Positions 7,683-32,700 of a stretch of DNA of 61,102 bases are shown one piece after another. Numbering within the stretch: the first letter of the stretch is position 1; every line of letters begins with the position of its first letter. The notes beneath the pieces were generated by a model that saw only the letters and a program-made list of their open reading frames with translations, was not told the DNA's origin and did no database searches. The stretch comes from a virus, in IMG/VR virus record IMGVR_UViG_3300046171_000055, positions 1-61,102 of that record. One strand, 5' to 3'. The position numbers and the translations under genes were made by a program.

Positions 7683-8093
7683 ATGCTTGATTACTTGAAA
7701 TATTGGCGAGTAGTCAGATACTTTGTCAAAAGAAAGTATGGTCTATCCCAAGCCGAACTAGAGATGCTTCTGTTTCTCAGAAGCGAAAAATATTTTTCAA
7801 AAGATGACTTTGATGAGTTTGATGAACTGCTTAGTTGGGATAAGAATAGATTTGAAAAACTAAGACAGGAAGGTTGGATTGAAGTCTTTAGAAAAAAGAA
7901 AGGTCATCGTAGAGTTGTGTATGCTTTAACATATAAATCACAACGAGTTCTTACATCTGTATATAAAAAATTAGAGGGAGAGGAAATACCTGAAAGTAAA
8001 TCTTCTAACCCTCTATTCTTAGCTGATGTATCCTATAACGATAAAGTATATAGGAACTATATTAAAAAACTAAACAAGTCTATTCGACAATAA
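7683..8093 (+). CDS. Winged-helix (MarR-like) putative regulator
   Basis: 136 residues. Residues 1-95 look like a winged helix-turn-helix: helices around YFVKRKYGLSQAELEMLLFL and FDELLSWDKNRFEKLRQEGW, then a basic wing FRKKKGHRRVVYALT. It is the only plus-strand gene in the late block. It starts from the mirror-image promoter 7650-7668 and ends 14 bp inside the 3' end of groES. A local switch for the basic-protein and chaperonin genes, or autoregulation, is likely from position; the target sites are not known. Confidence 0.72.
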   Translation: MLDYLKYWRVVRYFVKRKYGLSQAELEMLLFLRSEKYFSKDDFDEFDELLSWDKNRFEKLRQEGWIEVFRKKKGHRRVVYALTYKSQRVLTSVYKKLEGEEIPESKSSNPLFLADVSYNDKVYRNYIKKLNKSIRQ

Positions 8094-8337
8094 CTACATC
8101 TCGTTCTGTGATAATAGTATATTGCTCACCTTTGATTACCATAGTATGACCTGCTCGTGAATCATAATATATAACATCATTTGATTTTATATTAGATACA
8201 TCTGTGCCGGGTTTTACTACATCTGCTTTCTTATACCTAATTTGTGATACGTCATCTGCAGATAGTAGTAATCCTGATTCGGTTTTAACTTCTTCCTTTA
8301 TCTGACGAATCAGAATATACTTTCCTATTGGTTTCAT
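8080..8337 (-). CDS. groES: Co-chaperonin GroES (Cpn10)
   Basis: 85 residues, slightly shorter than the usual 95. The N-terminus MKPIGKYILIRQIKEEVKTE with SGLLLSADD corresponds to the GroES strand plus mobile loop, and IYYDSRAGHTMVIKGEQYTI with ITERDVVIVE is the C-terminal half of Cpn10. It caps the GroEL cavity during folding. It is downstream of the phage groEL in the same direction, separated by a small gene (8285-8470) that overlaps its start by 53 bp. Its 3' end overlaps the convergent regulator gene. The mobile loop looks short, which could tune it to the phage GroEL or to the host one. Confidence 0.88.
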   Translation of the reverse strand: MKPIGKYILIRQIKEEVKTESGLLLSADDVSQIRYKKADVVKPGTDVSNIKSNDVIYYDSRAGHTMVIKGEQYTIITERDVVIVE

Positions 8338-8470
8338 TTTTTGTAATATGGTATTTGTCTTCTTTTAAATCTTTAATGTAGAATCCTTTATCCTTTAGCA
8401 ATTTAATTGCTTTATCAATCCTAGCTTGTTCATTTCGATAGTGTTCAAATATTTGATTATAAATTGGCAT
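8285..8470 (-). CDS. Small protein between groEL and groES
   Basis: 61 residues (MPIYNQIFEHYRNEQARIDK then KGFYIKDLKEDKYHITK). Composition is ordinary and helical. Its ATG is 12 bp after the groEL stop, and its 3' end overlaps groES by 53 bp, which suggests translational coupling of the chaperonin operon. It has no known domain by eye. The overlap means the last third could be a by-product of groES coding, so the protein is likely but not certain. Confidence 0.6.
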   Translation of the reverse strand: MPIYNQIFEHYRNEQARIDKAIKLLKDKGFYIKDLKEDKYHITKNETNRKVYSDSSDKGRS

Positions 8471-8481
8471 TGTATTAGTAT

Positions 8482-10068
8482 TTAATTATTATTATCTTGA
8501 TAGGTTCTTGCCATTGTTATAATGGCATTGGTAGATAGAAGAGTAACTGCAACTGAAACTGCATTCTGTAAAGCAGTCTTAGTTACTTTCAATGGGTCAA
8601 TAATACCCATCTCATACATATCTCCATACTCATCGTTCTTAACATCATATCCACCTGAGAAGATATCACTCTCTCTAAACATACCATTATCATACTGCTC
8701 ACCTGCGTTTTCCCATATTTGTAATAGGGGTGCACGAAGTGCATCGTATAACATTTGTTGTGCTTTATTATCAGAGTCTTCATATTTAAATGATTGTCTA
8801 AATAAAGCAATACCTCCACCCGGAAGTATACCTTCTTCTAAAGCAGACCTGACTGCACATACTGCATCATCCACTCTATCATATAGTTCTTTTTGTTCTA
8901 AGTCAGTATTACCTCCAACATATATAACACCTACACCACCTGTTAATGTAGCAATCCTACTTAGTATAAATTCTTTATCGTCTTTTCTTTTAGTAGCTTT
9001 CAAAGCTTCTTTAAGTTCAGACACTCTTGTTTTAATAAGACTTTCATTATCTACATCGTCTTTGATGACGACAGTTGAGTCACGACCAACTATCACCTTG
9101 GCACAGTGACCCAAATCATTTACTGTCATCAATGATAAATCGTCACCGGTTTTTTCGCTAAAGTATGTAGCACCAACACTTGCTGCAATGTCTTGCATTA
9201 GTTCGTGTTGTTTATATCCAAAGGATGGAGGACCAATTGTACAAAGCTTCAAGTTGCTTTTCATTACATTGGCTGCTAAAGTATTTACAACATTAGATGA
9301 AGTAGGTGCAATAATTAAAAGTCTTTTACTTTCTGATATCACAGGCTTCAATATATTTTCAATACTTAAAATGTTTTCAATAGGTGCATCACTAACTAAT
9401 ACAAAACAATCTTCAAGAATACATTCATCTTTCTTTTGGTTGTTTACAAATAGTGGTGATTCATAACCTCTATCAATCTTAAGACCATTAGTGGTTTCAT
9501 AATACGTCTCAGATGTTTGAGATTTATCTACTGCAACGATTCCATCCTTTCCCACATTCCTATATACCTTTGCGATTATATCGCCTAGGTAAGAATCATT
9601 GTTAGCAGAAATAGTTGCTACATCTTTTAAAGTTTTATTATTAACTTTCTTTGACTTGGCTCTTAGGTTCTTTACAACCTTATTAGTTTCATTAACTAGG
9701 TCCCTTAATACTTGTGTCTTATTCTTGTCTAAATCTTTACCTGCGTTGACTAACGCTTCTGTGATTACAATTGCAGTTGTAGTTCCGTCTCCTGCTTGAG
9801 TAGCAGTTCTATCGGATGCTTCCTTCATAATCTTTACTGCAAGATTTTCTGTAGGGTCAAGTAATGCTACTGACTTAGCTACAGTAACTCCGTCTTTAGT
9901 TACAGTGATTCCGTTAGTGTGTTGTGGTGATTCTATTAGAACAGTTTGACCGGATGGTCCTAGTGTAGACTTAACTGCTTTAGATATTTTTTCAATCCCT
10001 TTGTAAAGTTTGTCTCTACCTTCTTCTTCAAATAAAAGATTCTTCGGACTGTATCCTAATTCTGACAT
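8482..10068 (-). CDS. groEL: Chaperonin GroEL (Cpn60)
   Basis: 528 residues (E. coli GroEL has 548). The equatorial ATPase motifs are intact: TLGPSG (35-40), VTKDGV with Asp59 matching E. coli Asp52, and GDGTTT (93-98). The apical domain (DRGYESPLFV onward) and the second equatorial half (ILPGGGIALFR) follow in normal order. It forms the folding ring for GroES-capped cages. The C-terminus ends TYQDNNN with no Gly-Gly-Met tail. It is the first gene of the minus-strand late block, with TATCTTTG at 10091-10098. Dedicated folding of a virion protein is a reasonable inference. All key residues I checked are present. Confidence 0.96.
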   Translation of the reverse strand: MSELGYSPKNLLFEEEGRDKLYKGIEKISKAVKSTLGPSGQTVLIESPQHTNGITVTKDGVTVAKSVALLDPTENLAVKIMKEASDRTATQAGDGTTTAIVITEALVNAGKDLDKNKTQVLRDLVNETNKVVKNLRAKSKKVNNKTLKDVATISANNDSYLGDIIAKVYRNVGKDGIVAVDKSQTSETYYETTNGLKIDRGYESPLFVNNQKKDECILEDCFVLVSDAPIENILSIENILKPVISESKRLLIIAPTSSNVVNTLAANVMKSNLKLCTIGPPSFGYKQHELMQDIAASVGATYFSEKTGDDLSLMTVNDLGHCAKVIVGRDSTVVIKDDVDNESLIKTRVSELKEALKATKRKDDKEFILSRIATLTGGVGVIYVGGNTDLEQKELYDRVDDAVCAVRSALEEGILPGGGIALFRQSFKYEDSDNKAQQMLYDALRAPLLQIWENAGEQYDNGMFRESDIFSGGYDVKNDEYGDMYEMGIIDPLKVTKTALQNAVSVAVTLLSTNAIITMARTYQDNNN

Positions 10069-12191: not shown

Positions 12192-12207
12192 GTGTCTTCA
12201 AAGACAC
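12192..12207. repeat. Dispersed 16-bp palindrome, copy 3
   Basis: GTGTCTTCAAAGACAC in the 36-bp gap between the first early gene and the amidoligase gene. Its GTG could be read as a start in frame with the next gene, but the ATG at 12225 is better placed. Confidence 0.95.
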
Positions 12208-12224: not shown

Positions 12225-13178
12225 ATGAGTACAGAAATTCAATACGATAATTCAAATGATGCCGGTAGAAACCGAGTTCAGTCTTATCACAGAAGTCCTA
12301 GTCCGAGAGACCTCTCTAAAGGTGCAAAGTCTTCCGATATTAAAAATCTGAAGTCTGCATCCAAGAGAAACCTAATCGAGTTAGGCGATGGCAATACCGA
12401 GTCTAAATTTACTATCGGTATGGAAGTAGAAAAGCAACGACTCTCTAGAGGTGCAGTTAAAGAATATCCTTTGTTTGCCGGATTCGAGAGAGATTCCTCT
12501 TGTGGCTATGAAGCCATTACTAATATCATTCCTTTGTTACCTAGTGGACAATGGAGAAACAAAGTTTTCAATATGATGTTCCAAGCTAGGAAAATTATAG
12601 AAGACCAATACTCTCCTAGTTCTACTAGATGTGGTGGTCACATTACACTAGCAGTTCAAGGAATGACCGGTGCTGAAGTTATGAAAGCTATCAGAAAAAA
12701 TTGTGGGATTGTTTACTCTCTATTTTACAAGAGGTTGAACAATGGTTACTGCAATGGTAATATGACAATGTTAGATAAGAGTACTTTAGCATCTGATGAG
12801 GTTATGAGATACCAAAGAAGATACGATGTGTGTCTTGACAAGGGTAACACTATCGAGTTTAGGTTAGTTAGTAGATTCCAATCTGTAAAGCAGATGATGA
12901 GAAGATACGAATTGTTCTATGAGTTACTTGATTTCTCAATTAACAATCCTAATGGAAGTCACAATACATTCCTTAAGAAAATTACTCCAATCGTTAAGTC
13001 TATGTACAATGGAGATATGGACAAAGTGAATGAGAAGTTAACCTTAGCTAAATCATTTAGAACAATGATTCTTAAGAATAAAGTTAACCGAGATGTGATA
13101 AACTATGTTGACCCAATGCGAAGACTAGATGCAAGTAAATGGTACGACAGAGACCTTAATCGAAATGGTTACAATTAA
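12225..13178 (+). CDS. Amidoligase-like enzyme (COOH-NH2 ligase fold)
   Basis: 317 residues from ATG 12225. After a Ser/Lys-rich N-terminus, the fold signatures of the amidoligase (glutamine synthetase/GCS-like) family appear in order: KFTIGMEVEK with Glu67 and Glu69, ERDSSCGYEAI with Asp90 and Glu96, CGGHITL with His139, and IEFRL with Glu211 and Arg213. These positions bind metal-ATP and substrate in the family, which makes amide bonds between a carboxylate and an amine using ATP. The substrate is unknown. A class II glutamine amidotransferase/GGCT fusion lies 1.8 kb downstream in the same operon, and such partners are known for amidoligases. Family call by motif only. Confidence 0.72.
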   Translation: MSTEIQYDNSNDAGRNRVQSYHRSPSPRDLSKGAKSSDIKNLKSASKRNLIELGDGNTESKFTIGMEVEKQRLSRGAVKEYPLFAGFERDSSCGYEAITNIIPLLPSGQWRNKVFNMMFQARKIIEDQYSPSSTRCGGHITLAVQGMTGAEVMKAIRKNCGIVYSLFYKRLNNGYCNGNMTMLDKSTLASDEVMRYQRRYDVCLDKGNTIEFRLVSRFQSVKQMMRRYELFYELLDFSINNPNGSHNTFLKKITPIVKSMYNGDMDKVNEKLTLAKSFRTMILKNKVNRDVINYVDPMRRLDASKWYDRDLNRNGYN

Positions 13179-13191
13179 AAATCAAAGGGTA

Positions 13192-13207
13192 GTGTCTTCA
13201 AAGACAC
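13192..13207. repeat. Dispersed 16-bp palindrome, copy 4
   Basis: GTGTCTTCAAAGACAC, 13 bp after the amidoligase stop. Flanking bases extend the arms to nine pairs (TAGTGTCTT/AAGACACTA). Confidence 0.95.
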
Positions 13208-13287
13208 TATCCTCTGTCTATCGGTGTGTGCCGGTACTGATGAGTTCAAAAGAACGAAACAGAAACATTAATTTAAATTCAATCAAG

Positions 13288-13524
13288 ATGAAAAATCAAA
13301 TCAGAAATTATGCAGAAACAATTCTGTATGTATCAGTAACACTAGGAGTCTTCTCAATGGTAGGTAGACTATTAATCCACATTATTTTTAACGATGCTAG
13401 AATGCTCATTCAGACATTCAGTGGAGCAGTATCAATGCTTGTAGTATTTGCATTCTTATTATTCTTAATGTATGCAACATTCACACTTATAGTAGCTGAC
13501 ATAAAAGAGAGACACAATGCATAG
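13288..13524 (+). CDS. Small two-helix membrane protein
   Basis: 78 residues from ATG 13288 (an in-frame ATG at 13240 is possible). Two long hydrophobic helices are clear: LYVSVTLGVFSMVGRLLIHI and AVSMLVVFAFLLFLMYATFT, with a charged end KERHNA. An early membrane protein next to an amidoligase and a secreted lysozyme-like protein could act at the host envelope, for example in superinfection exclusion; this is inference from context. It overlaps the next gene by 8 bp. Confidence 0.68.
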   Translation: MKNQIRNYAETILYVSVTLGVFSMVGRLLIHIIFNDARMLIQTFSGAVSMLVVFAFLLFLMYATFTLIVADIKERHNA

Positions 13525-13684
13525 AGAAAGAAAACACTACTACAAAGTTAGATATGCAGGTAAGCTAATTAAAGTCTTATCTGCTCATTCTAAATGGGAA
13601 GCAATCGACAGAATTTACAATGATAATATTGGTAGGTACAAGTGGATTGTCAGAGAAAAATTTACAGCAGTTAAATCTAAATAA
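13517..13684 (+). CDS. Small basic protein, unknown
   Basis: 55 residues: KHYYKVRYAGKLIKVLSAHS then KWEAIDRIYNDN and WIVREKFTAVKSK. It has the look of a small alpha/beta domain with ordinary composition. It starts inside the end of the membrane protein gene (8-bp overlap) and stops 10 bp before the next ATG, so it fits the operon. No function is assigned. Confidence 0.72.
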   Translation: MHRERKHYYKVRYAGKLIKVLSAHSKWEAIDRIYNDNIGRYKWIVREKFTAVKSK

Positions 13685-13694
13685 AATTAAAATT

Positions 13695-14048
13695 ATGTAT
13701 AAAGTAACATTACAATTCAATACTCATAAGATTACTTATGGGTCGAACAGAGGGCAGTGGGTCATAACTAAAGAGTTCAACGACCTAAGACACTGCAACA
13801 ATTTCATAGACTATATATGCAGAACAAAAGCATACTCACTTGATGAGATATGGTACGAGTCCGGTTATCCTTTCAAAGAGGGTGACAAATATTTCACCTT
13901 AGAGAAGAATCAAATCATTAGTTCTTGGTGGGATGATGTGTCAGAAGAATTGTTTGATAAGAATACCATCTACTTTGTGACACAAAAAGATGCAGAGAAT
14001 TATAGAGATAGTATGAAAGATGTAACAATCATAAATCTAAGACAATGA
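13695..14048 (+). CDS. Unknown early protein
   Basis: 117 residues from ATG 13695, which follows an A/T-rich leader and a stop in the previous gene. It is rich in aromatics (KYFTLEKNQIISSWWDDVSE) with mixed alpha/beta character. It overlaps the next gene by 4 bp (ATGA type), so the two are coupled. No motif is recognised. The neighbour is a secreted lysozyme-like protein. Confidence 0.7.
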   Translation: MYKVTLQFNTHKITYGSNRGQWVITKEFNDLRHCNNFIDYICRTKAYSLDEIWYESGYPFKEGDKYFTLEKNQIISSWWDDVSEELFDKNTIYFVTQKDAENYRDSMKDVTIINLRQ

Positions 14049-14563
14049 AAAAATTAATATTTATATCAGCATTATCTGTGGTTGGATATGTGAGTAGTTC
14101 TGTGTCTTCAAAGACACAAACTGCTCAGACAGAGGTAAGTCAACAGACAGACTCTGTTCTAGTGGTACGGGAGGAAGTAGTTCCTCCCAAGCCATTGGCG
14201 ATAGACACATTGCTAGTTGCAATTATGTATGTAGAATCTAGACTAGACTCAACGGCATATGCAAAGAATGAAAATGCCGTAGGAGTTTTACAGATAAGAC
14301 CAATAATGGTTCGTGAAGTTAATAGAGTTCTAAAAAAGATGGGCAAGGAAGATAGATATACATTGAAAGACAGATGGAGTTTAGTGAAGTCAGTCGAGAT
14401 GTTTAATGTCATACGAGACTATCACCATAAAGAATCAGACTATGAAACCATAGCAAGATGTTGGAATGGTGGAAGGAGAGGTGATAGAAAAAAATCTACA
14501 CTTGTGTATTGGGAACGAGTTCAAATACAAATAAATAATATCAATCAAATTTTAAATAAATAG
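14045..14563 (+). CDS. Secreted lysozyme-like (transglycosylase SLT-type) protein
   Basis: 172 residues. Residues 1-19 look like a signal peptide (MKKLIFISALSVVGYVSSS). Residues 55-150 resemble the lysozyme-like SLT fold: LLVAIMYVESRLDS with Glu64 as the likely catalytic acid, ENAVGVLQIRP, and ARCWNGG. It would cleave peptidoglycan glycan strands in the periplasm. Its place in the early module, far from the endolysin, argues against late lysis and for early wall remodelling. Palindrome copy 5 encodes VSSKT (20-24) right after the signal peptide. A perfect GGGAGGAA/TTCCTCCC hairpin lies at 14169-14188. Confidence 0.75.
   Translation: MKKLIFISALSVVGYVSSSVSSKTQTAQTEVSQQTDSVLVVREEVVPPKPLAIDTLLVAIMYVESRLDSTAYAKNENAVGVLQIRPIMVREVNRVLKKMGKEDRYTLKDRWSLVKSVEMFNVIRDYHHKESDYETIARCWNGGRRGDRKKSTLVYWERVQIQINNINQILNK
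14102..14117. repeat. Dispersed 16-bp palindrome, copy 5
   Basis: GTGTCTTCAAAGACAC inside the secreted lysozyme-like gene, encoding VSSKT at residues 20-24. The flanking T and A add one pair to the arms. Confidence 0.95.
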
Positions 14564-14565
14564 TT

Positions 14566-14865
14566 ATGACAAACAAAGAACAAATAATCAAAGAGTTAAG
14601 AAGAAGAATGCAGATAGCTAGAGACACTCAAGCTATAGGCAGAGAAAGATACCTAGCTACACTCATAGAGGGTGTGAAGAATGAATTCAAACCTGCGTAT
14701 GACGATGAGGGAAAAAAGTTTAGCACCTGCTTTGACAATATGGAATTAAGTGGAAGCTTTTCAATGCAGTTGAGTTGGTGGAATAATTTTGCAGACTATG
14801 TGCAAGAACATAGAAACACTTGCTACAACAATGCTTGTGAATACGCAGATGAAAAAGAAAGATAA
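14566..14865 (+). CDS. Unknown early protein
   Basis: 99 residues. A charged helical N-terminus (KEQIIKELRRRMQIARDTQA) is followed by a part with Trp and Cys (MQLSWWNNFADYV, NTCYNNACEYAD). It starts 2 bp after the previous stop. It ends the first early transcription block, because a promoter at 14897-14904 follows. No family was recognised. Confidence 0.66.
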   Translation: MTNKEQIIKELRRRMQIARDTQAIGRERYLATLIEGVKNEFKPAYDDEGKKFSTCFDNMELSGSFSMQLSWWNNFADYVQEHRNTCYNNACEYADEKER

Positions 14866-14896
14866 GATTAGACTTGCGTATGTCTAAATTTAGTCT

Positions 14897-14904
14897 TATA
14901 TTTG
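14897..14904 (+). promoter_or_regulatory. Promoter for the amidotransferase-cyclotransferase gene
   Basis: TATATTTG (-7) with a TTG about 20 bp upstream (near 14874) matches the Bacteroidota spacing. Palindrome copy 6 lies between this promoter and the ATG at 14968, inside the 5' leader. Confidence 0.6.
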
Positions 14905-14930
14905 TCCAATCAATTATTAATCAGAGGTCT

Positions 14931-14946
14931 GTGTCTTCAAAGACAC
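14931..14946. repeat. Dispersed 16-bp palindrome, copy 6
   Basis: GTGTCTTCAAAGACAC in the leader of 14968-16038. GAGG and CCTC flank it at near-symmetric positions, which could lengthen an RNA hairpin. Confidence 0.95.
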
Positions 14947-14967
14947 TCCTCACAAATCAAATCAAAT

Positions 14968-16038
14968 ATGTGCGTAATTATTATTAAGCAGAAAAACAAT
15001 CAGATGTCAGAGGAAATAGCCAAGACCTCTGCAAGAATTAATCCTCACGGATTAGGAATTATTTGGCTAGATACTTTTGAAGTCGAGTATTATAAATCAA
15101 AAGACTATCGCAAGTTAATTACTAACCGACCTTTCATTGCTCACTTTAGATATGCAACTAAGGGTGCAGTCAACAAAGCAAACACTCATCCATTTGTATG
15201 TGGTAAAAACACAGATGAATTGCTTATGCACAATGGTACAATCAAAGGGTTAGGAGATGCTAAGATGTGCGACAGTAAAGTTCTAGCTAATAACTTAGGG
15301 TCAATGAATCGTATGCATTGGAAAAAACATTTAGAGCAGTATGACTCTCGATTTGTTTCAATCAATCTTCGTACTCGTTCATTTCAAATCTACAACAGAA
15401 ACCTATACACTTATCGAGATGGTATTTGGTATTCCAAAGCCAATGTATTACAAGACAATCTTATTGCAGTGTATGGTACACTAAAGAAAGGGTTTGGTAA
15501 CTACTACTCATACCTAACTAATGCAAAGCATTTAGGTAGAGGTAAGACTCAAGACAAATATCCTTTGTTGGTTGAGGGTTTACCATACTTGGTAGAAAAG
15601 AAAGATGTGGGTCACAATGTGGTGGTTGATGTGTTTAAGGTTAGTGATATGCAACTAAAGAATATTGACCAACTTGAAGGACATCCACGTTGGTACAAGC
15701 GAAAGCAAATACCAATTAAACTAAAGAATCGTACTCTAAATTGTTGGGTGTATTTCAATTCAAAAGACATCACAAACAAAGAGTATCACGAATCTTTTGA
15801 AAGAACCTACAGACAAGAACCACTCTTCACTTTTGAAGATGTTCAGCCAACTTATGATACCACTGAGTATCACGAGGCAATAGATATTGGTTGGTCTGAC
15901 ACAGACTTTCCAACTGAAACCACTCCAACTTGTGTCGATTGTTTCAGTGACTTGGAACACGATGCATTTCACAACTACTACTGCTCATCTTGTGGTGGTT
16001 GGTTCAAGGAAGATGAAGTATTAAAATTTAACGACTAA
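14968..16038 (+). CDS. Class II glutamine amidotransferase + gamma-glutamylcyclotransferase + zinc ribbon fusion
   Basis: 356 residues. The start is ATG 14968, because it exposes Cys2, the Ntn nucleophile (MCVIIIKQ). Domain 1 (1-150): NPHGLGI (26-31), FRYATKG with NTHPF (60-76) and MHNG (87-90) are class II glutaminase motifs, which release ammonia from glutamine. Domain 2 (about 165-290): YGTLKKGFGNY (169-179) and LEGHPRWYKR with Glu237 match the GGCT/AIG2-like cyclotransferase fold. Domain 3: C322-x2-C325 and C339-x2-C342 form a zinc ribbon. It has its own promoter and follows the amidoligase gene, so an amide or peptide pathway is likely. I do not know of a characterised protein with this order. 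Confidence 0.82.
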   Translation: MCVIIIKQKNNQMSEEIAKTSARINPHGLGIIWLDTFEVEYYKSKDYRKLITNRPFIAHFRYATKGAVNKANTHPFVCGKNTDELLMHNGTIKGLGDAKMCDSKVLANNLGSMNRMHWKKHLEQYDSRFVSINLRTRSFQIYNRNLYTYRDGIWYSKANVLQDNLIAVYGTLKKGFGNYYSYLTNAKHLGRGKTQDKYPLLVEGLPYLVEKKDVGHNVVVDVFKVSDMQLKNIDQLEGHPRWYKRKQIPIKLKNRTLNCWVYFNSKDITNKEYHESFERTYRQEPLFTFEDVQPTYDTTEYHEAIDIGWSDTDFPTETTPTCVDCFSDLEHDAFHNYYCSSCGGWFKEDEVLKFND

Positions 16039-20423: not shown

Positions 20424-21617
20424 ATGACAGAAAAGGTTACAATATTTAAAAACATTAAAGAAACAGAGACTCCATTTCATAAGGAAGTGGGTGTTGTACT
20501 AGAGAGAATCAAGGATGGTGCAACAAAGAACTTAGTTAAATCAATACGGCTTACTAAGGATAAATCAGAACGCAATGAACTAAAGAAAAGATTACCTGCG
20601 ATTTGTTTTAGTGGAACATTCACAAAGAGAAAAGATGATGCTATACAAGAACACTCAGGTATTATTTGTTTGGACTTTGATGGCTACGAAAAAAAGAAAT
20701 TACTTTTAGAACATAAAGAAAGATTAACTAAAGACCCATACACGTTTTCAGTTTTCATTTCACCATCAGGCAATGGACTTAAGGTATTGGTAAAGATACC
20801 TGCCAATACAGAAAACCATATAAACTATTTTAATTCACTCCAAAAATATTATGACTCACCTTACTTTGATAAGATGTGTAAGAATGTTTCAAGAGTTTGT
20901 TATGAATCATACGACCCATTACTTTATACCAACAAAGTATCACAACTGTGGGATACAGTAGCTGAACCTGAATACACTGAGGTAGATAAATACAATGACC
21001 CTCCAACAATACCAATCTCAGATGAGAATAAAATTGTAGAGATACTTGTTAAGTGGTGGGAGAAAAAATATCCAATGATTGAAGGTCAACGTAATCAGAA
21101 CTGCTATGTATTAGCTATGGCATTCAATGATTATGGAATCAATAAATCGTTGGCAGGTTATATACTTAATAGATATGTCACTAAAGATTTTAATCAAAAT
21201 GAAATCAACAGAACAATAGACTCTGCATATATTAATACTCAAAACTTTGGTACTAAGTATTACGAAGATGAAGAAAGACTTCAATCAATTAAGGATAAGT
21301 TTAGAAAGGGTATATCAAAAAAAGAAATACGCAGCCAACTAAGTGATGCAGGTATGGATTCAGAAGCGATAGATGGTGTAGTAAATAAAATAGAAAAGGA
21401 ACAAGCAAAGAAAACCTTTTGGGAAAAGAATGAAAAGGGAACCATAAAGATTGTACACTTCTCTTTTAAAAAGTTTTTAGAAGACAATGGTTTCTATAAG
21501 TATTGCCCTGAAGGTGGTAAGAACTATGTGTTTGTTAAGGTTACTAATAACCTAATAGACCACACATCAGAAAAAGAAATTAAAGGACTTTGTTTTAAAT
21601 TATCTACAAGACATTGA
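20424..21617 (+). CDS. Primase part of a primase-helicase (VirE-N/BT4734-like)
   Basis: 397 residues as read. HSGIICLDFDGY with Asp84 and Asp86, and VFISPSGNGLKVLVKI (110-125) are the active-site motifs of BT4734/VirE-N-type primases of Bacteroidota elements. A PriCT-like helical part follows (about 205-275). The frame ends early at 21617 with KLSTRH after an apparent one-base insertion at about 21585. In the next frame the expected text (KDFVLNYLQDID) continues. Together with the helicase frame, correction of three indels would give an 803-residue protein. It is either interrupted by sequence errors or truly broken. Confidence 0.75.
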   Translation: MTEKVTIFKNIKETETPFHKEVGVVLERIKDGATKNLVKSIRLTKDKSERNELKKRLPAICFSGTFTKRKDDAIQEHSGIICLDFDGYEKKKLLLEHKERLTKDPYTFSVFISPSGNGLKVLVKIPANTENHINYFNSLQKYYDSPYFDKMCKNVSRVCYESYDPLLYTNKVSQLWDTVAEPEYTEVDKYNDPPTIPISDENKIVEILVKWWEKKYPMIEGQRNQNCYVLAMAFNDYGINKSLAGYILNRYVTKDFNQNEINRTIDSAYINTQNFGTKYYEDEERLQSIKDKFRKGISKKEIRSQLSDAGMDSEAIDGVVNKIEKEQAKKTFWEKNEKGTIKIVHFSFKKFLEDNGFYKYCPEGGKNYVFVKVTNNLIDHTSEKEIKGLCFKLSTRH

Positions 21618-21868
21618 TGACTTAAGTGTATACAATTACTTTGCAGACCAAGTTAGATTTTTTAGGGAAGAGTTTCTTACTCTACTAAATACCATTGATA
21701 TTTATTTTATCGAAGACACAAAAGAATCTGCTTACTATACTATCAAAACTGTGCAGTCAAGATAACTAAAGATTTAATTGAACCCATAGACTACTTAGAT
21801 TTAGGTGGTTATGTATGGTCAGACCATATCATATCAAGAAAGTTTAAAATATGTGATGAGTATCAAGT
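21585..21868 (+). other. Triple-frameshift zone inside the primase-helicase
   Basis: Three frame changes in 284 bp link the primase and helicase frames. At 21585 an extra G (AAAGGACTTTG); at about 21739 one missing base (TACTATACTATC); at 21867 an extra G (TATCAAGTGTGAC). Between them the text is clear coding (DFVLNYLQDIDDLSVYNYF; KDLIEPIDYLDLGGYVWSD). Elsewhere the window has almost no such errors. Confidence 0.8.
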
Positions 21869-22836
21869 GTGACTATTCTATATTCATTGGAAACATTTGT
21901 GGTAATGATACAGACAGGGTAAAAACTATGGAAAGCACCATAGGTTTTATGATGCACGGGTATAAAAATTTATCATACTGTCCTGCAATCATATTGAATG
22001 ATGAGATTATATCAGACAACCCTGAGGGTGGAACAGGTAAAGGTTTGTTTATGAATGCACTGAGTCAAATGAAAAAGTTAGTAGTCATAGATGGTAAAGC
22101 TTTTGCTTTTGAGAAATCATTTCCATATCAGTTAGTATCAGCAGATACACAGATACTTTGTTTTGATGATGTAAAGAAGCACTTTGATTTTGAAAGATTG
22201 TTTAGTGTAGTAACAGAAGGATTAACACTAGAGAAGAAGAACAAGGATGCAATTAAGATACCATTTAGCAAGTCTCCTAAAATAGCTATCACAACTAACT
22301 ATGCTATCAAAGGTTCAGGTAATTCTTTTGAACGTAGAAAGTGGGAGGTAGAACTTCATCAACACTATACTAAAAACTTCACACCACTTGATGAATTTGA
22401 TAAGCACTTCTTTGCTGATTGGAATGAAGATGATTGGTGTTTGTTTGATAACTATATGACTTCGTGTTTACAGAACTATTTAACAACAGGATTAGTAAAG
22501 AGTAAGTTTGTTAATCTAAAGATTAGACAACTATCTGCCTCAACTTCACACGATTTTATTGAATGGTGTGGATTAATTGAAGGTCATCAGAAAAATAATA
22601 AATTAGTTTTAGATACAAGACTGTCTATGCAAGATTTATATTTTGATTTCATTGGGGAGTATCCTGACTATGGACCAAAAGCTAAGATGACTATTAGTAG
22701 AACTAGATTTTATAAATGGTTAATTCAGTATGGTTCATACATAACTAACAGACAACCATTAGAAGGAAGAGATATGAATGGTAGATGGTTTGAAATGCAG
22801 AACCCTAAACCGACTCAAGGCAGTCTTAGTATATGA
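21805..22836 (+). CDS. Superfamily 3-like helicase part of the primase-helicase
   Basis: 343 residues in this frame; the first residues before about 22 (IKCDYSIF) are out-of-frame reading. The Walker A motif NPEGGTGKGLFMNALSQM is followed by DGKAFAF, a Walker B-like ILCFDDVKKHFDF and the sensor-like region KIAITTNYAIKGSG, in the order of D5/VirE-type helicases of Bacteroidota phages. It unwinds DNA ahead of the primase. The ATG at 21805 is unlikely to be a real start, because the upstream frames continue the same protein. It overlaps the next gene by 4 bp. Confidence 0.78.
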   Translation: MVMYGQTISYQESLKYVMSIKCDYSIFIGNICGNDTDRVKTMESTIGFMMHGYKNLSYCPAIILNDEIISDNPEGGTGKGLFMNALSQMKKLVVIDGKAFAFEKSFPYQLVSADTQILCFDDVKKHFDFERLFSVVTEGLTLEKKNKDAIKIPFSKSPKIAITTNYAIKGSGNSFERRKWEVELHQHYTKNFTPLDEFDKHFFADWNEDDWCLFDNYMTSCLQNYLTTGLVKSKFVNLKIRQLSASTSHDFIEWCGLIEGHQKNNKLVLDTRLSMQDLYFDFIGEYPDYGPKAKMTISRTRFYKWLIQYGSYITNRQPLEGRDMNGRWFEMQNPKPTQGSLSI

Positions 22837-26742: not shown

Positions 26743-29700
26743 TTACTTCTTTAATTCTTCTCTAAGTTCTCTTTTCATTTTTCTTATCTCATAATCAGGA
26801 GTACCCGGTCCATACATTTCTTTGTATAGGTCAGGGTCTATATCTCTTAACAACGACTTAGACATTCCCTTGTCTTTACTTGAACTTTTCTTTTCCTTAA
26901 TACCATATCCCGGTCTGTATGATGTACTTACACCTGTAAGGTCATACATATTTTCTTCACTAAAGTCTCCACCTAAAGCTTTAAACAATGCTAAAGGAGC
27001 ATCGAGTTGCATACCTAAAGATATTTCAAATATTGGTTGTACATAATTAAGCACGGTACCACCCTCTTCTACTTTCTTATGCATCTTATCCATCTTTCTA
27101 ATAACAGAACTAAGAGGATTAACTCCATCGCTTACAGGCTTTCTGCTACCCTCAATTTTAGAAACCAATTGTTCCATAGCAGAACCAACTAAAGGTATAC
27201 CATATATTAAGTTAAGACCTAAAGCAGCATCTCTTAATGCCTTCATTGCTCTGTCTTTCTCCTCATCATTTTTTCCGTGTAACAAAGCAGGTGCATAAGA
27301 TGCTAGTGTAAACATTACGTTTGCTGCAGAATAGTTTAGAACAAACTTTCTTAAATCAGAAGCTTTTATTTCACTTGGTTTGCCTTTAGCTATACTACTA
27401 AAAACGGCTCTACTTGATTGGCTTACGTTGTTCATCATTAGGTATAATGAACTACCGAACATAGTAAAGAACCTATTATAAAAACTTGTCTTTTGTTGGA
27501 TAGGAGATTTCTCTGTACTTCTTCTTGTCTGTTGAGTTGCATTGTATTCATTGAATAATCTTAAAGCTTCAGCATCAGTCATACCATTTTTCTTGGCTCT
27601 ATTATATAGTGCCTTATATCCTAGTACACCAAGTATATCACCTGCTACTGTAGTAAAACCTGCTGCTCTCTGAACACCCCTAGTAAATCTACCTCTTTTT
27701 GTTTGCTTTGCTCTTGCTTTCTTGAATGTTCTACCACCTGATTCAAGACCAAATATATCTCCCTCTAAACCTTTTTTGATACGAGCATCAAATGTAGCTG
27801 ACATTTCTCTAGCCTCTCTAATTTGTTTTGGTAGAGTCATTATCACTTCAGCATAGTCTCTAATAAATGTAAGCAAGTCTGCTCCCGGCATCTTGTATCC
27901 TGAATCATACTTTTCAAAAGCCTGTACAAAAGATGAAGCCTGTTTAGGAATTTGAATTAGTTTGAAAGCTAATGCAAAACCTGTAAATCTAGTTTGTAGT
28001 TTTGTAAGTAGGTTATTTGAAACTTCAGGACCTGACTCAGGATTTATAGCATAGTTTAAATTTTGTTTGAAGAGTGACGATAAACCTGATTGTTCTAATA
28101 GAGTAGCAATCTGTTCGTCTTTTAATATTTCATTCATCTCTTTAACTCCAAGAGCATAAGACTTGTACTTCTCCATTGACTTAACGTGGTCTTCCATAAC
28201 CTCACTAAACGATAAGCCAATCTCAACATCACCTGTCAAATCAGTTCTTTCTTTTAAAGCAGGTGAATATTCTGCAGTAAATATTTTATCAAACTGTCCT
28301 TGTCCAATCATCTCTGATGTTATATCACCCTTCGATAAAGTTCTAGTAGGAAAATAATTTTCTACATATCCTAGGTTTACATCATTAACTTGAGAATAAA
28401 CTTCATTAGTTTCTTCAAAGTATTTATTACTTAAGAAATCTACAACTTGGTCAACCAACTCTACATTCTCAGGACCGATAAAGTCTTTGACTGCATCCAT
28501 ATTAATCCCTTGGTCTTCAAGCTTTTTTCTTTGCACATCATTTTTACTTAGTGCGTACAACCTCATCGCTTGGTCTACATTGAGAGTTTCTGTATATACA
28601 TTTCCTGTCTTAGTGTCTATAGCCGTAAACTCTGCAGTGTCTTCGCCTAATGAGTATTTCCAATTCTCCCACGTTTTATTGTGAGTAGATTCAGTCATAG
28701 CATTCATTTTGTTTTCAGTACGTCTTACACCTTGTAGATTGTTTTCATCAAAATCATTTAATCTATTATAAAAGGTTTCACTAAACATACCCTCACTGTT
28801 TCTGTCTAACAGTCTAGTAACTGAACCAAGATGGCTTATGTTATTTTGTAAAAACTTAGCGATACCATTGTAAGATAGCTTTTGGTCTTCCATAAAATTG
28901 TTAAGGAAAGTTTTAACTCCTTTCCAAAGACCTTCACTAAACGCTTTTCTAATTCTTTGGCTTCTATTTCTTAGTGCATTTTTGCCTAAAGGTTTACCAT
29001 TCTCATCATAAAGTTCTGAGTAATCATTTGATATTTGTTCTTGGAACTTTTGTTTTTGTTCTTCAATTTTTTGTCTTCTTAATTCTCTCCTGTTATTTAG
29101 TCTAGCAATGGACTCACCTCGTGTAGTTTTTACATCTTCAAATAATTCCTCCACTTGTTCTAGTTCCATACTAAGAACATCAGCGAATGAATCCAACGCA
29201 AGTCTTCTGTCAATTAACTGTTGTTCTTTAGTTGTAAGATTTATATTATTCGCAACCTTTGTTTCTATTGCAGACATAACATTAGGAGTTACAGTAGATT
29301 CAAGTTCACTTAAAGCTTCTGTATTATTTTCTTTTACTGCTTTTAAAACTCTGTTTACTTCAGCAAAATAAGCCTGACCTGCAGCATCTAAACCTGAAGA
29401 CCTTCTCTTACCTGATGTAGTCTTTTTTGTTTTAGATTTCTTTTTAACCAAATTAATTATCTTATCTATCAATTGATTCTTGATAACACCCCTTTGCTTT
29501 TCAACTTCAGTTAAAACCTCTGATATTTTACCATCAAAGTTTTTAGGATTAGTTTCGTTAACGACTTTTAAAAGTTTGTTTACTGAACGGTTATTATAAT
29601 TTTTAGACTTAGGTAAAAGTTTTCTTATAATCATTCTCATTCTACGTTGAGCATCAGTAATATTATCTTCACTGATTCTTCTCTGACGTAAGTTGTTTCT

Positions 29701-32700
29701 GATGTCAGCTATTTCTCTTCTTACATTTGGATTGGCTCTAATACCAAGTACTCTATCAAACGCATTCTCTAGTTCAAGTTGAGTTTGTTCAGGTTGTACT
29801 TTATATATAGGGTTTTCTCTAAGCAAGTCTAATGCTTTCTGTCTTATCTCGGCAAATGATTTAGTCCTTACACCTGTTTTACCTTTACCACCTCTAGGTC
29901 CTTGAATAGCAAAAGCATTTACTGCATCTCTAGTTTCAGTAAATAATCTTTGACCTACAATGGCACCACCTTCAACATTACCAAACTCTCTTGGCATAGG
30001 TTTTAATAAATCAAGTTGAACTGTTAGTGCATTAGTTATATCCTTTGGTTTGAATCCTCTGTTTTTTAGTACCACTCTAATAGATTCATCACTAAATCCT
30101 TCTCTTCTTCCTTGTTCTACAATACTATCAATAGACAAGCCTGTGCTAAAAGCAGCATCAGGGTTCTTTAGCATCTTCATTTGCTTGTCGGTCATCTTAA
30201 TTTCTTGACCTGCAAAAATATCAGCAAGTGCTACACCTAAGAATTTGTCAAGTGACAAGTCTTGAATTTCCTCTGCACTAAGGTCGGCTGACCTAGTTGA
30301 AAAGTTGTTCTTGATATAATTCCACATACCAAGAAGCCACTCTTGAAACTTAGCTTTCAATGATGCGTTAGCTATGGTCTCACCTTTGTTACCAATAAGT
30401 ATAGCCATTGCTTCGTTAGTAGCTTTCTCTACATCCCCGTCAAATCTTTTTAGTTGTTCTTTAAAGGTGTCAGTTTCCTGCACTAATTCTGCACCTTTTT
30501 CATATACCTTTCTACCTTGTTCAGTAGTTTTTAAGTAGTCGGTCCAAACGTGACCCATCTCGTGAATTGCAGTATTGAACAACTGTGATTCAGAGTTATG
30601 AACCTCAGGGTTAATATAAATATCCCCGTCTACAGTAACACCATAAACAACCTCATCACCTTTTAGATATACTCTTACATTATCTGATGCTAGTATATTA
30701 TTAAATGTGTCTGTATCAGAATTAATTACTACACCCGGAAATGCAATATTCATAAATGAGTTTAGTTTATCTACATTGCTTGGACTTTCATTAGATATAA
30801 TACCTACATAATCAAATGAAGGTATACCAATACCAAAACCTAATTGTTGTGCTCTTAATGTGTTTATTTGACTCGGTTTGCTTTCCGGTGTAATTGTTTC
30901 TTCTTTCTCAATAAGCTTGGCAAATACTTTTTGATAAGCTTTTGGATATACCGTTTCCATTCTTTGTGGATTTTCAAGTATACCAATTGACCTTCCTCTC
31001 ACACCATACTTATAATTAGGGTGTGTTGTTTCTACTATACCGGGATTCAATACATCTACACCAACAACAGAAACAACATTACCACCGGGTACATCCCTTA
31101 GTTGTGGGTCAGTAACTACATCTGTAATCATACTAATGTTTATTAGATTGGTATTAGGTAGTCCTTTTAATAGTGTAGTTGGAACTGCCTTAGTTGTAGG
31201 TGTAACTTTTTGATTAGTTCTTTTAGACTTTTGTAAAGGCTTGTTAGCTTTACTTGTTGTCATCAGCTTTACTAAATGACTACGCACAGGAAGTGGTAGT
31301 TTTTGAATTACATCATTAGCTAATAGTTGGTCTACGCTAGTTGGATTTAATTCTTCTATTGTTTCTAATAATTGTTTGTACTCACCCAAGTCTTTTGGTG
31401 GTTTTGCTTTAGTTTCTAGGAAATCAATATTTTTTTGAATAGCTTCTTTTAATACAGGTACTGCAGCCTTTCTATTCTTTAATGGAATCTTCTGCATATT
31501 ATCTAACAAGACTCGTATTACTGCTTCATTAGAAACCATAGCTTGTTCTCCCATCTTCACAATGTTCATAGGAACAAGACCATTCATCTCAGGATTCTTT
31601 GCCCAAAACTCATCAAATAAATTTTTATTATTTTGATATACTTGGTCTGCTTTATTTACAATAGACTGTGCTTCTTTCTCCGTGACGTTTGCCCAAGCTG
31701 CTTGTTCATTACCAACAGTTCCATTAAAACCAATGGCACCTTTTAGGTTATCTATAGTTGTATTGGTTTGTGGATTAACAACTGTACCTGTAGTAAGTTG
31801 GTCTGTAATACTAAATATAGTAGGAAGACCTTTTATTACTTCAAGCTTAGTAACTTTTAAATTATTATCTGTTCTTGTGTTAAGTTCTTCAACATCAATC
31901 TTAGATGTTCCTTCTTGGCTTTCTACAGTGGTATCTACGTTTGGAGATTCTATTTCATTAATCTCTGTAGTAATTTCAATCTCATCAGGACCAATATTAT
32001 CTGTGTTGTTTTCGTTGGTTGTTTCTAATTTAAAATCTACTTTAGGTTTTGTTCCTGATTCTTTTTCTTGAAGAGATTGTTCTAGGTCAGTTACTTCCTG
32101 TACTGCTGCATCATTATTGGTAACTGCTTCTTCAGTTTCGAGTGTCTTCAAAGACACTCCATCTTCTGCAGTTTGTTCTTGTATTTGAGTAGGAGTTTCT
32201 ACTGAAGGTGTTGTAGTTTCTGTTGTAGGTGTAGTGGTTTCAGTAACCTCACCTTGTTCTACTGTTACATTTCCATCAGATGCTGCTTGTGCAACTGCTT
32301 GTGCAGGTGCAACTTTAGCTTCAACTAATTTGTTTGCTACCATTTGAGAAACCTCATCATCATTTTCAATGGATGCATTTAGTCTACCTATATTTTTCGG
32401 GTCTAAACCATTTATATATTTTACAAACTCATCTTTGCTTACCTCTGTAAACTGACCAAGCTTTCCTCTAAATCCTTTTCTTATTTTGTAGGTAGGTTTT
32501 CCTGCTCTCAAATCTGTTCCTGTAGCTTGTTCTTGAACAGATAGCACACCTGTACCTGCTAACAGTGTTTGTTGCTCAGGTGTTCTTAATTCTTTTGTGG
32601 TCAGTATTTCTGACAACTCTGTATTTATTTCTTTAATCTTTGGTCCAAAAACTTCTTTTCTATTTTGTGAAGATGACAATTCGTTTTTAGCAGAAAGGAG

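Follow-up and report, generated by a model that had tools for sequence, protein, structure and literature searches.

The virus record IMGVR_UViG_3300046171_000055, analysed here over its whole length of 61,102 bases (34.6% GC; referred to as the window), carries a gene for an amidoligase-like protein and a gene for a fused amidotransferase-cyclotransferase among its replication genes, at the start of a rightward replication-gene array. We consider it fairly probable (roughly 0.6) that the two genes are a two-gene, fusion-bearing variant of the phage amidoligase/class II amidotransferase/gamma-glutamyl cyclotransferase cassette, predicted to make and break gamma-glutamyl amide bonds. The pathway itself is not new. 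What is new is a divergent amidoligase family, the three-domain fusion, and the reduction to two genes without a COOH-NH2 ligase or an ATP-grasp protein. The following features were assigned to the pair, where GS denotes glutamine synthetase, Ntn N-terminal nucleophile and GGACT gamma-glutamylamine cyclotransferase.

12225–13178, + strand: divergent GS-fold (Amidoligase_2-like) amidoligase, 317 aa, predicted from the AlphaFold (AF2) model, Foldseek, hhalign and invariant motifs
14968–15450, + strand: class II (Ntn, Cys2) glutamine amidotransferase (GATase) domain, N-terminal, approximately residues 1–161, predicted from PF13230, residues and Foldseek
15457–15780, + strand: GGACT/AIG2 domain, approximately residues 164–271, predicted from PF06094, sequence and fold
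15928–16038, + strand: putative C-terminal zinc ribbon (C322, C325, C339, C342), from four cysteines and a weak Pfam match

Both genes were found where the initial annotation had placed them. The start of the amidoligase was set at the ATG at 12225, because the relatives align from this later Met and the upstream GTG at 12192 sits, unused, in a repeated palindrome. The protein had no Pfam or PHROG family match, and a sequence profile search of the PDB gave none either. The Pfam model PF12224 (Amidoligase_2) recognised 0 of 85 diverse relatives at E<=1 and had no match in the window and eight relatives. The AF2 model, built from the 85-sequence alignment, had a mean predicted local distance difference test score (pLDDT) of 94.2 and a predicted TM-score of 0.93. 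When this model was searched against the PDB with Foldseek, the best matches were glutamine synthetases and the carboxylate-amine ligase YbdK; the best E was 5.0e-4, but TM-scores were low, at about 0.3–0.4. Against a viral library, the named matches below the close relatives were mostly annotated as amidoligases of Cronobacter, crAss-like, Aeromonas, Vibrio, Pseudomonas and other phages, at E values of about 1e-7 and weaker. The initial annotation had suggested profile-profile searches of the domains, and hhalign of the family against nine phage PF12224-type proteins gave 96.6% (E 6.9e-10, 229 columns), while negative controls with an unrelated alignment gave 0.2%. The match was obtained only with the PF12224 alignment; the single sequences P0003 and Marvin gp105 each gave less than 1%. 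A COOH-NH2 ligase was also considered as an identity for the protein and was rejected, as hhalign against two such ligases gave just 0.7%.

The residues E67, E69, H139, E211 and R213, which the initial annotation had named in an ATP-dependent amidoligase-like protein, were found at the positions given and were invariant in 85/85 relatives. They belong to motifs that occur in the same order as in PF12224: GxExE (G65, E67, E69), DxS..GxE (D90, S92, E96), CGGH (C136–H139; CGxH in PF12224), RLxNxYC (R170, C176; RxxNxYC in PF12224) and IEFR (E211, R213; ExR in PF12224). All of these numbered residues were invariant in the 85 proteins except C176 (83/85). Like the window ligase, PF12224 members have a GS-like fold and are often encoded beside a GATase or GGCT; the window ligase differs from them in its own N-terminal region and a C-terminal helical region. 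Judged from sequence and model, the protein is a GS-fold ligase with its predicted metal- and phosphate-binding residues intact, and on sequence comparison it belongs to a new, divergent family that is invisible to current Pfam models.

The fused enzyme runs from the ATG at 14968 to 16038 (356 aa) and begins Met-Cys. Relatives align from this Met-Cys and the upstream start lies in or beside a palindrome, so the TTG at 14902 was regarded as spurious. Pfam recognised GATase_4 (PF13230) at 2.1e-6, above the cut-off, and GGACT (PF06094) at 2.4e-21, with a sub-threshold match to a TFIIB-type zinc ribbon (0.14). The initial annotation had described a three-domain enzyme with a Cys2 glutaminase, a cyclotransferase and a zinc ribbon, and conservation agrees with these predicted activities. 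The amidotransferase-site residues C2, R61, H74, N89, G90 and D102 were present in 67/67 relatives, as were the YGTL loop and the catalytic E237, which aligns with E82 of human GGACT; the four ribbon cysteines were present in 65/67. The N-terminal domain matched the folds of GFAT, PurF and the gamma-glutamyl hydrolase EgtC. Across the whole model (pLDDT 87), the best Foldseek matches were mouse and human GGACT (3jub, 3juc and 1vkb; 3juc 3.8e-9), with weaker matches to GGCT (3cry, 2.9e-4) and ChaC2 (2.4e-2). Because GGACT structures outscore GGCT and ChaC2, the middle domain is predicted to be of the gamma-glutamylamine type; its earlier assignment as a gamma-glutamylcyclotransferase holds for the fold, but it is nearer GGACT than GGCT proper. 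The domain also matches human and mouse GGACT (A2LD1) by sequence and shares their fold, YGTL loop and catalytic Glu; unlike them, it is one part of a polypeptide that also has an Ntn amidotransferase and a zinc ribbon. From sequence and model, then, the second gene fuses an Ntn amidotransferase and a GGACT-type cyclotransferase, both with predicted catalytic residues intact, to a putative zinc ribbon.

The two genes travel together. The amidoligase and the amidotransferase co-occurred in 148 loci (98 distinct contigs), with order and strand shared and a median distance of 1.8 kb; in MW202828 they are adjacent. The fused gene was missing from 12 amidoligase loci, every one of which ended within about 2.5 kb downstream, and the cases in which the absence of a partner was otherwise unexplained were the locus L084 and Phage C75C1. 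The ratio of nonsynonymous to synonymous substitution rates against close relatives was roughly 0.11–0.17 for both genes. Both genes are passed on together as one unit, and purifying selection acts on them. These results sustain the functional link that the initial annotation had proposed and are consistent with its predicted gamma-glutamyl or amide theme. Another fold for either protein, or a survey of phage genomes with no co-occurrence in relatives, had been named as evidence that would speak against it; the fold of each protein was confirmed, and relatives carry the two genes together.

In L084, three genes follow one another: a second amidoligase, an amidotransferase that is unfused but has a cysteine-rich tail, and the window-type amidoligase; no GGACT was found anywhere in that record.

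L084, 5007–7153: second amidoligase of a different family (402 aa) together with the unfused amidotransferase directly after it

This second amidoligase bridges the window family and the PF12224 set, with hhalign values of 98.3% and 89.2%.

The same three activities are known from a published "peptidoglycan modification cassette" or module of RIO-1-, phiEco32- and LUZ24-like phages, for which superinfection exclusion has been proposed and in which gene number and domain organisation vary (PMC5498523, PMC11945000, PMC10580990, PMC11318856). Iyer et al. 2009 is cited for the cassette activities in three of these papers (PMC5498523, PMC11945000, PMC10580990). The earlier view of the pair as a new pathway was therefore abandoned. 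The RIO-1/phiEco32/LUZ24-type cassette comprises GGCT, GATase, COOH-NH2 ligase, amidoligase and ATP-grasp genes. Like it, the window lineage clusters an amidoligase, a class II GATase and a GGCT-type cyclotransferase among early or replication genes (98 distinct contigs); unlike it, the window has the GATase and GGACT in a single polypeptide with a zinc ribbon, and its amidoligase is not seen by Pfam. COOH-NH2 ligase (PF14395) and RimK-type ATP-grasp (PF08443) had no match in the window and eight relatives; in two cassette phages scanned as controls, each gave a match.

The order of domains in the fused gene had been called unfamiliar, but it also occurs in Phage C75C1 (OQ984151), at 39% identity and with an amidoligase about 0.85 kb upstream. 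This phage otherwise differs from the window lineage. Its fused enzyme lacks the zinc ribbon, and its amidoligase is a canonical PF12224 protein (3.5e-30) that replaces the window family. This substitution is independent evidence that the window ligase does the work of an amidoligase. Other phages carry different combinations of these genes. GGACT, GATase and amidoligase occur together in the Arthrobacter phages Salgado and Ottawa, and with ATP-grasp and the PF14395 ligase in Vibrio 1.293.O, a Melvirus and Cellulophaga phi14:2. Amidoligase and GGACT were found in Bacillus 055SW001, Geobacillus GR1 and a Blautia phage, and amidoligase and GATase in Marvin and MEP401. The fused architecture was searched for in plasmids and none was found.

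A module that makes and breaks gamma-glutamyl bonds is favoured because the typical chemistry of the three folds converges on the gamma-glutamyl amide bond. For GS-fold ligases, the group usually activated is the gamma-carboxylate of glutamate; the window ligase would use ATP to activate a carboxylate, most likely this one, and join it to an amine. Ntn amidotransferases hydrolyse glutamine or gamma-glutamyl amides, so that the N-terminal domain of the fused enzyme may supply ammonia or remove a group. GGACT frees 5-oxoproline from gamma-glutamylamines, and the middle domain would likewise release a gamma-glutamyl group from its amine as 5-oxoproline. Early in infection, the two proteins together would make and break gamma-glutamyl (iso)amide bonds on a molecule of the host or of the phage. 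EgtA and EgtC of ergothioneine biosynthesis are a precedent for a GS-type gamma-glutamyl ligase paired with a Cys2 Ntn gamma-glutamyl hydrolase. Unlike that system, the window shows no ergothioneine genes, its ligase is of another family, and a cyclotransferase domain is added.

Several points weigh against this reading. The chemistry of the Amidoligase_2 family is itself predicted. Both His residues of the HxH motif are invariant in the nine-member phage PF12224 set; in the window family the first (H139) is invariant (85/85), but the second is not kept, being Thr in the window protein and most aligned relatives. Common descent accounts for part of the co-occurrence seen inside the window's own lineage. 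A Porphyromonas phage has its amidoligase without either partner within 3.5 kb, and no GGACT or GATase_6 match was found in its record. It is the only one of the phages examined with neither partner, and the link between amidoligase and GATase/GGACT is thus strong but not absolute.

The genes between the pair had been taken to bear on the target of this chemistry. In the window the gap of 1.8 kb is filled by genes that vary among relatives, including the following.

13288–13524, + strand: small membrane protein (true start approximately 13288)
13517–13684, + strand: small basic protein, 55 aa, the most frequent intervening gene
14045–14563, + strand: secreted SLT/lysozyme-like protein (PF01464, 2e-4, at the cut-off)

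The small basic protein was found in 56 of the 98 contigs, with 55 of its 56 copies between the pair; it is possibly an accessory component, not an obligatory one. The membrane protein was found in 22/98 contigs and the SLT-like protein in 13/98, and both were rejected as parts of the module for this poor conservation with the pair.

Three views of the target are compatible with the gamma-glutamyl reading, since they concern the target and the reading concerns the chemistry. Class II amidotransferase-type enzymes of the AsnB/LtsA type amidate peptidoglycan stem peptides, which speaks for the envelope, where peptidoglycan peptides or another surface structure would be altered and superinfection blocked. 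We hold this tentatively, as one possibility. The initial annotation had favoured the envelope from the membrane and secreted lysozyme-like genes; both genes are present between the pair, but the argument from them fails because they are absent from most relatives. No obvious export signal was seen in the sequence of either catalytic protein. Amidation of stem peptides is possible, but trimming of intact peptidoglycan by GGACT is chemically disfavoured, because the enzyme requires a free alpha-amine on the gamma-linked glutamate and the alpha-amine of the stem-peptide D-Glu is acylated. The envelope has been proposed as the target of the homologous phiEco32, RIO-1 and LUZ24 cassettes (PMC5498523, PMC11945000, PMC10580990), although our literature search turned up no experiment on peptidoglycan modification or superinfection exclusion by the cassette. 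A small-molecule pathway is somewhat doubtful. Here the ligase would cap an amine with gamma-glutamate and the Ntn and GGACT domains would later uncap it, by EgtA/EgtC or butirosin-like logic, for example for a protective or counter-defence metabolite or for amine recycling. The substrates of GGACT are gamma-glutamylamines, and the Ntn domain matches the fold of EgtC, a gamma-glutamyl Ntn amidohydrolase whose step follows that of the gamma-glutamylcysteine ligase EgtA, but no conserved tailoring enzyme that would use a capped intermediate lies beside the pair.

It is unlikely that the target is a protein or peptide, with the ligase forming isopeptide bonds between glutamate or another amino acid and the side chains of a host or phage protein, GGACT and Ntn domains editing or recycling the adducts, and the zinc ribbon docking. 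PafA is a protein ligase of the GS fold, human GGACT acts on gamma-glutamyl-epsilon-lysine, and the ribbon is present in 65/67 relatives, all of which would fit; however, the C75C1 homologue has no ribbon and no obligate conserved substrate protein lies beside the pair, the small basic protein being present in just 56/98 contigs. Hypermodification of DNA bases, in which the amidoligase would put an amide or amino acid on a modified base, is highly improbable. The pair does sit among replication genes, and some phage DNA modification routes include ammonia-donating amidotransferases, but no recognised base-modifying enzyme was found among the scanned early-region genes and the literature search gave no paper tying an amidoligase to hypermodification.

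The genome is podovirus-like, with a portal, a terminase, a T7-type tail match and amidase/holin genes. The window also encodes GroEL/GroES, a Sak annealing protein, a DUF3799 nuclease, a primase and a DnaA-like protein. The loci recovered by the IMG/VR scans represent one widespread phage lineage with genomes of roughly 60 kb, and GroEL lies upstream of the module wherever the sequence extends far enough to show it (53/53 relatives).

8080–10068, − strand: phage GroES and GroEL pair
6990, 11280, 12192, 13192, 14102, 14931, 17461, 18886, 20192, 24228, 32142, 48330 and 55464: copies of a repeated palindrome

The 16-bp palindrome GTGTCTT(CA/TG/TA)AAGACAC has 13 exact copies in the window against 0.09 expected, and is kept across the lineage at about 2.9 per 10 kb. 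In 37/98 contigs a copy is found no more than 120 bp upstream of the amidoligase, and in 49/98 contigs no more than 150 bp upstream of the fused gene; some copies fall within genes. The palindrome may serve as an operator for a phage regulator or form an RNA hairpin. The largest open reading frame (ORF) of the genome encodes 2,922 aa (26743–35511, − strand). The ORFs at 20424–21617 and 21805–22836 match the first and second halves of phrog_28855 (positions 1–389 and 481–792), and the region of MW202828 matching 20424–22836 holds a single 2.4 kb gene annotated as "vire al domain". The two ORFs are possibly a split primase or helicase gene, or the result of an insertion or frameshift. For host placement, a Bacteroidota-type promoter motif was tried and was not above chance. 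Among bacterial genomes, the search found the window-type amidoligase only as a single fragment (68% identity over 87 residues), carried by the 12-kb contig L168 (DMWU01000212.1). This contig is binned in the Erythrobacter metagenome-assembled genome UBA9348 and is probably a phage contig within the bin.

Amidoligase, amidotransferase and cyclotransferase genes recur across phages of very different hosts, and the literature found offers only a hypothesis for them. A single experiment could express and assay the small two-gene version, for which the GGACT domain gives a specific expected readout: 5-oxoproline released from a gamma-glutamylamine. Current annotation overlooks a large amidoligase family that escapes the current Pfam models. 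More speculatively, and with a low likelihood in our view, the pair could be a self-contained system of reversible gamma-glutamyl tagging, in which the amidoligase writes glutamate or another amino acid on an amine carried by one particular host protein or other macromolecule, and the Ntn-GGACT enzyme, docked through its zinc ribbon, erases or recycles the tag. If this were true, the phage would own a switchable post-translational modification.

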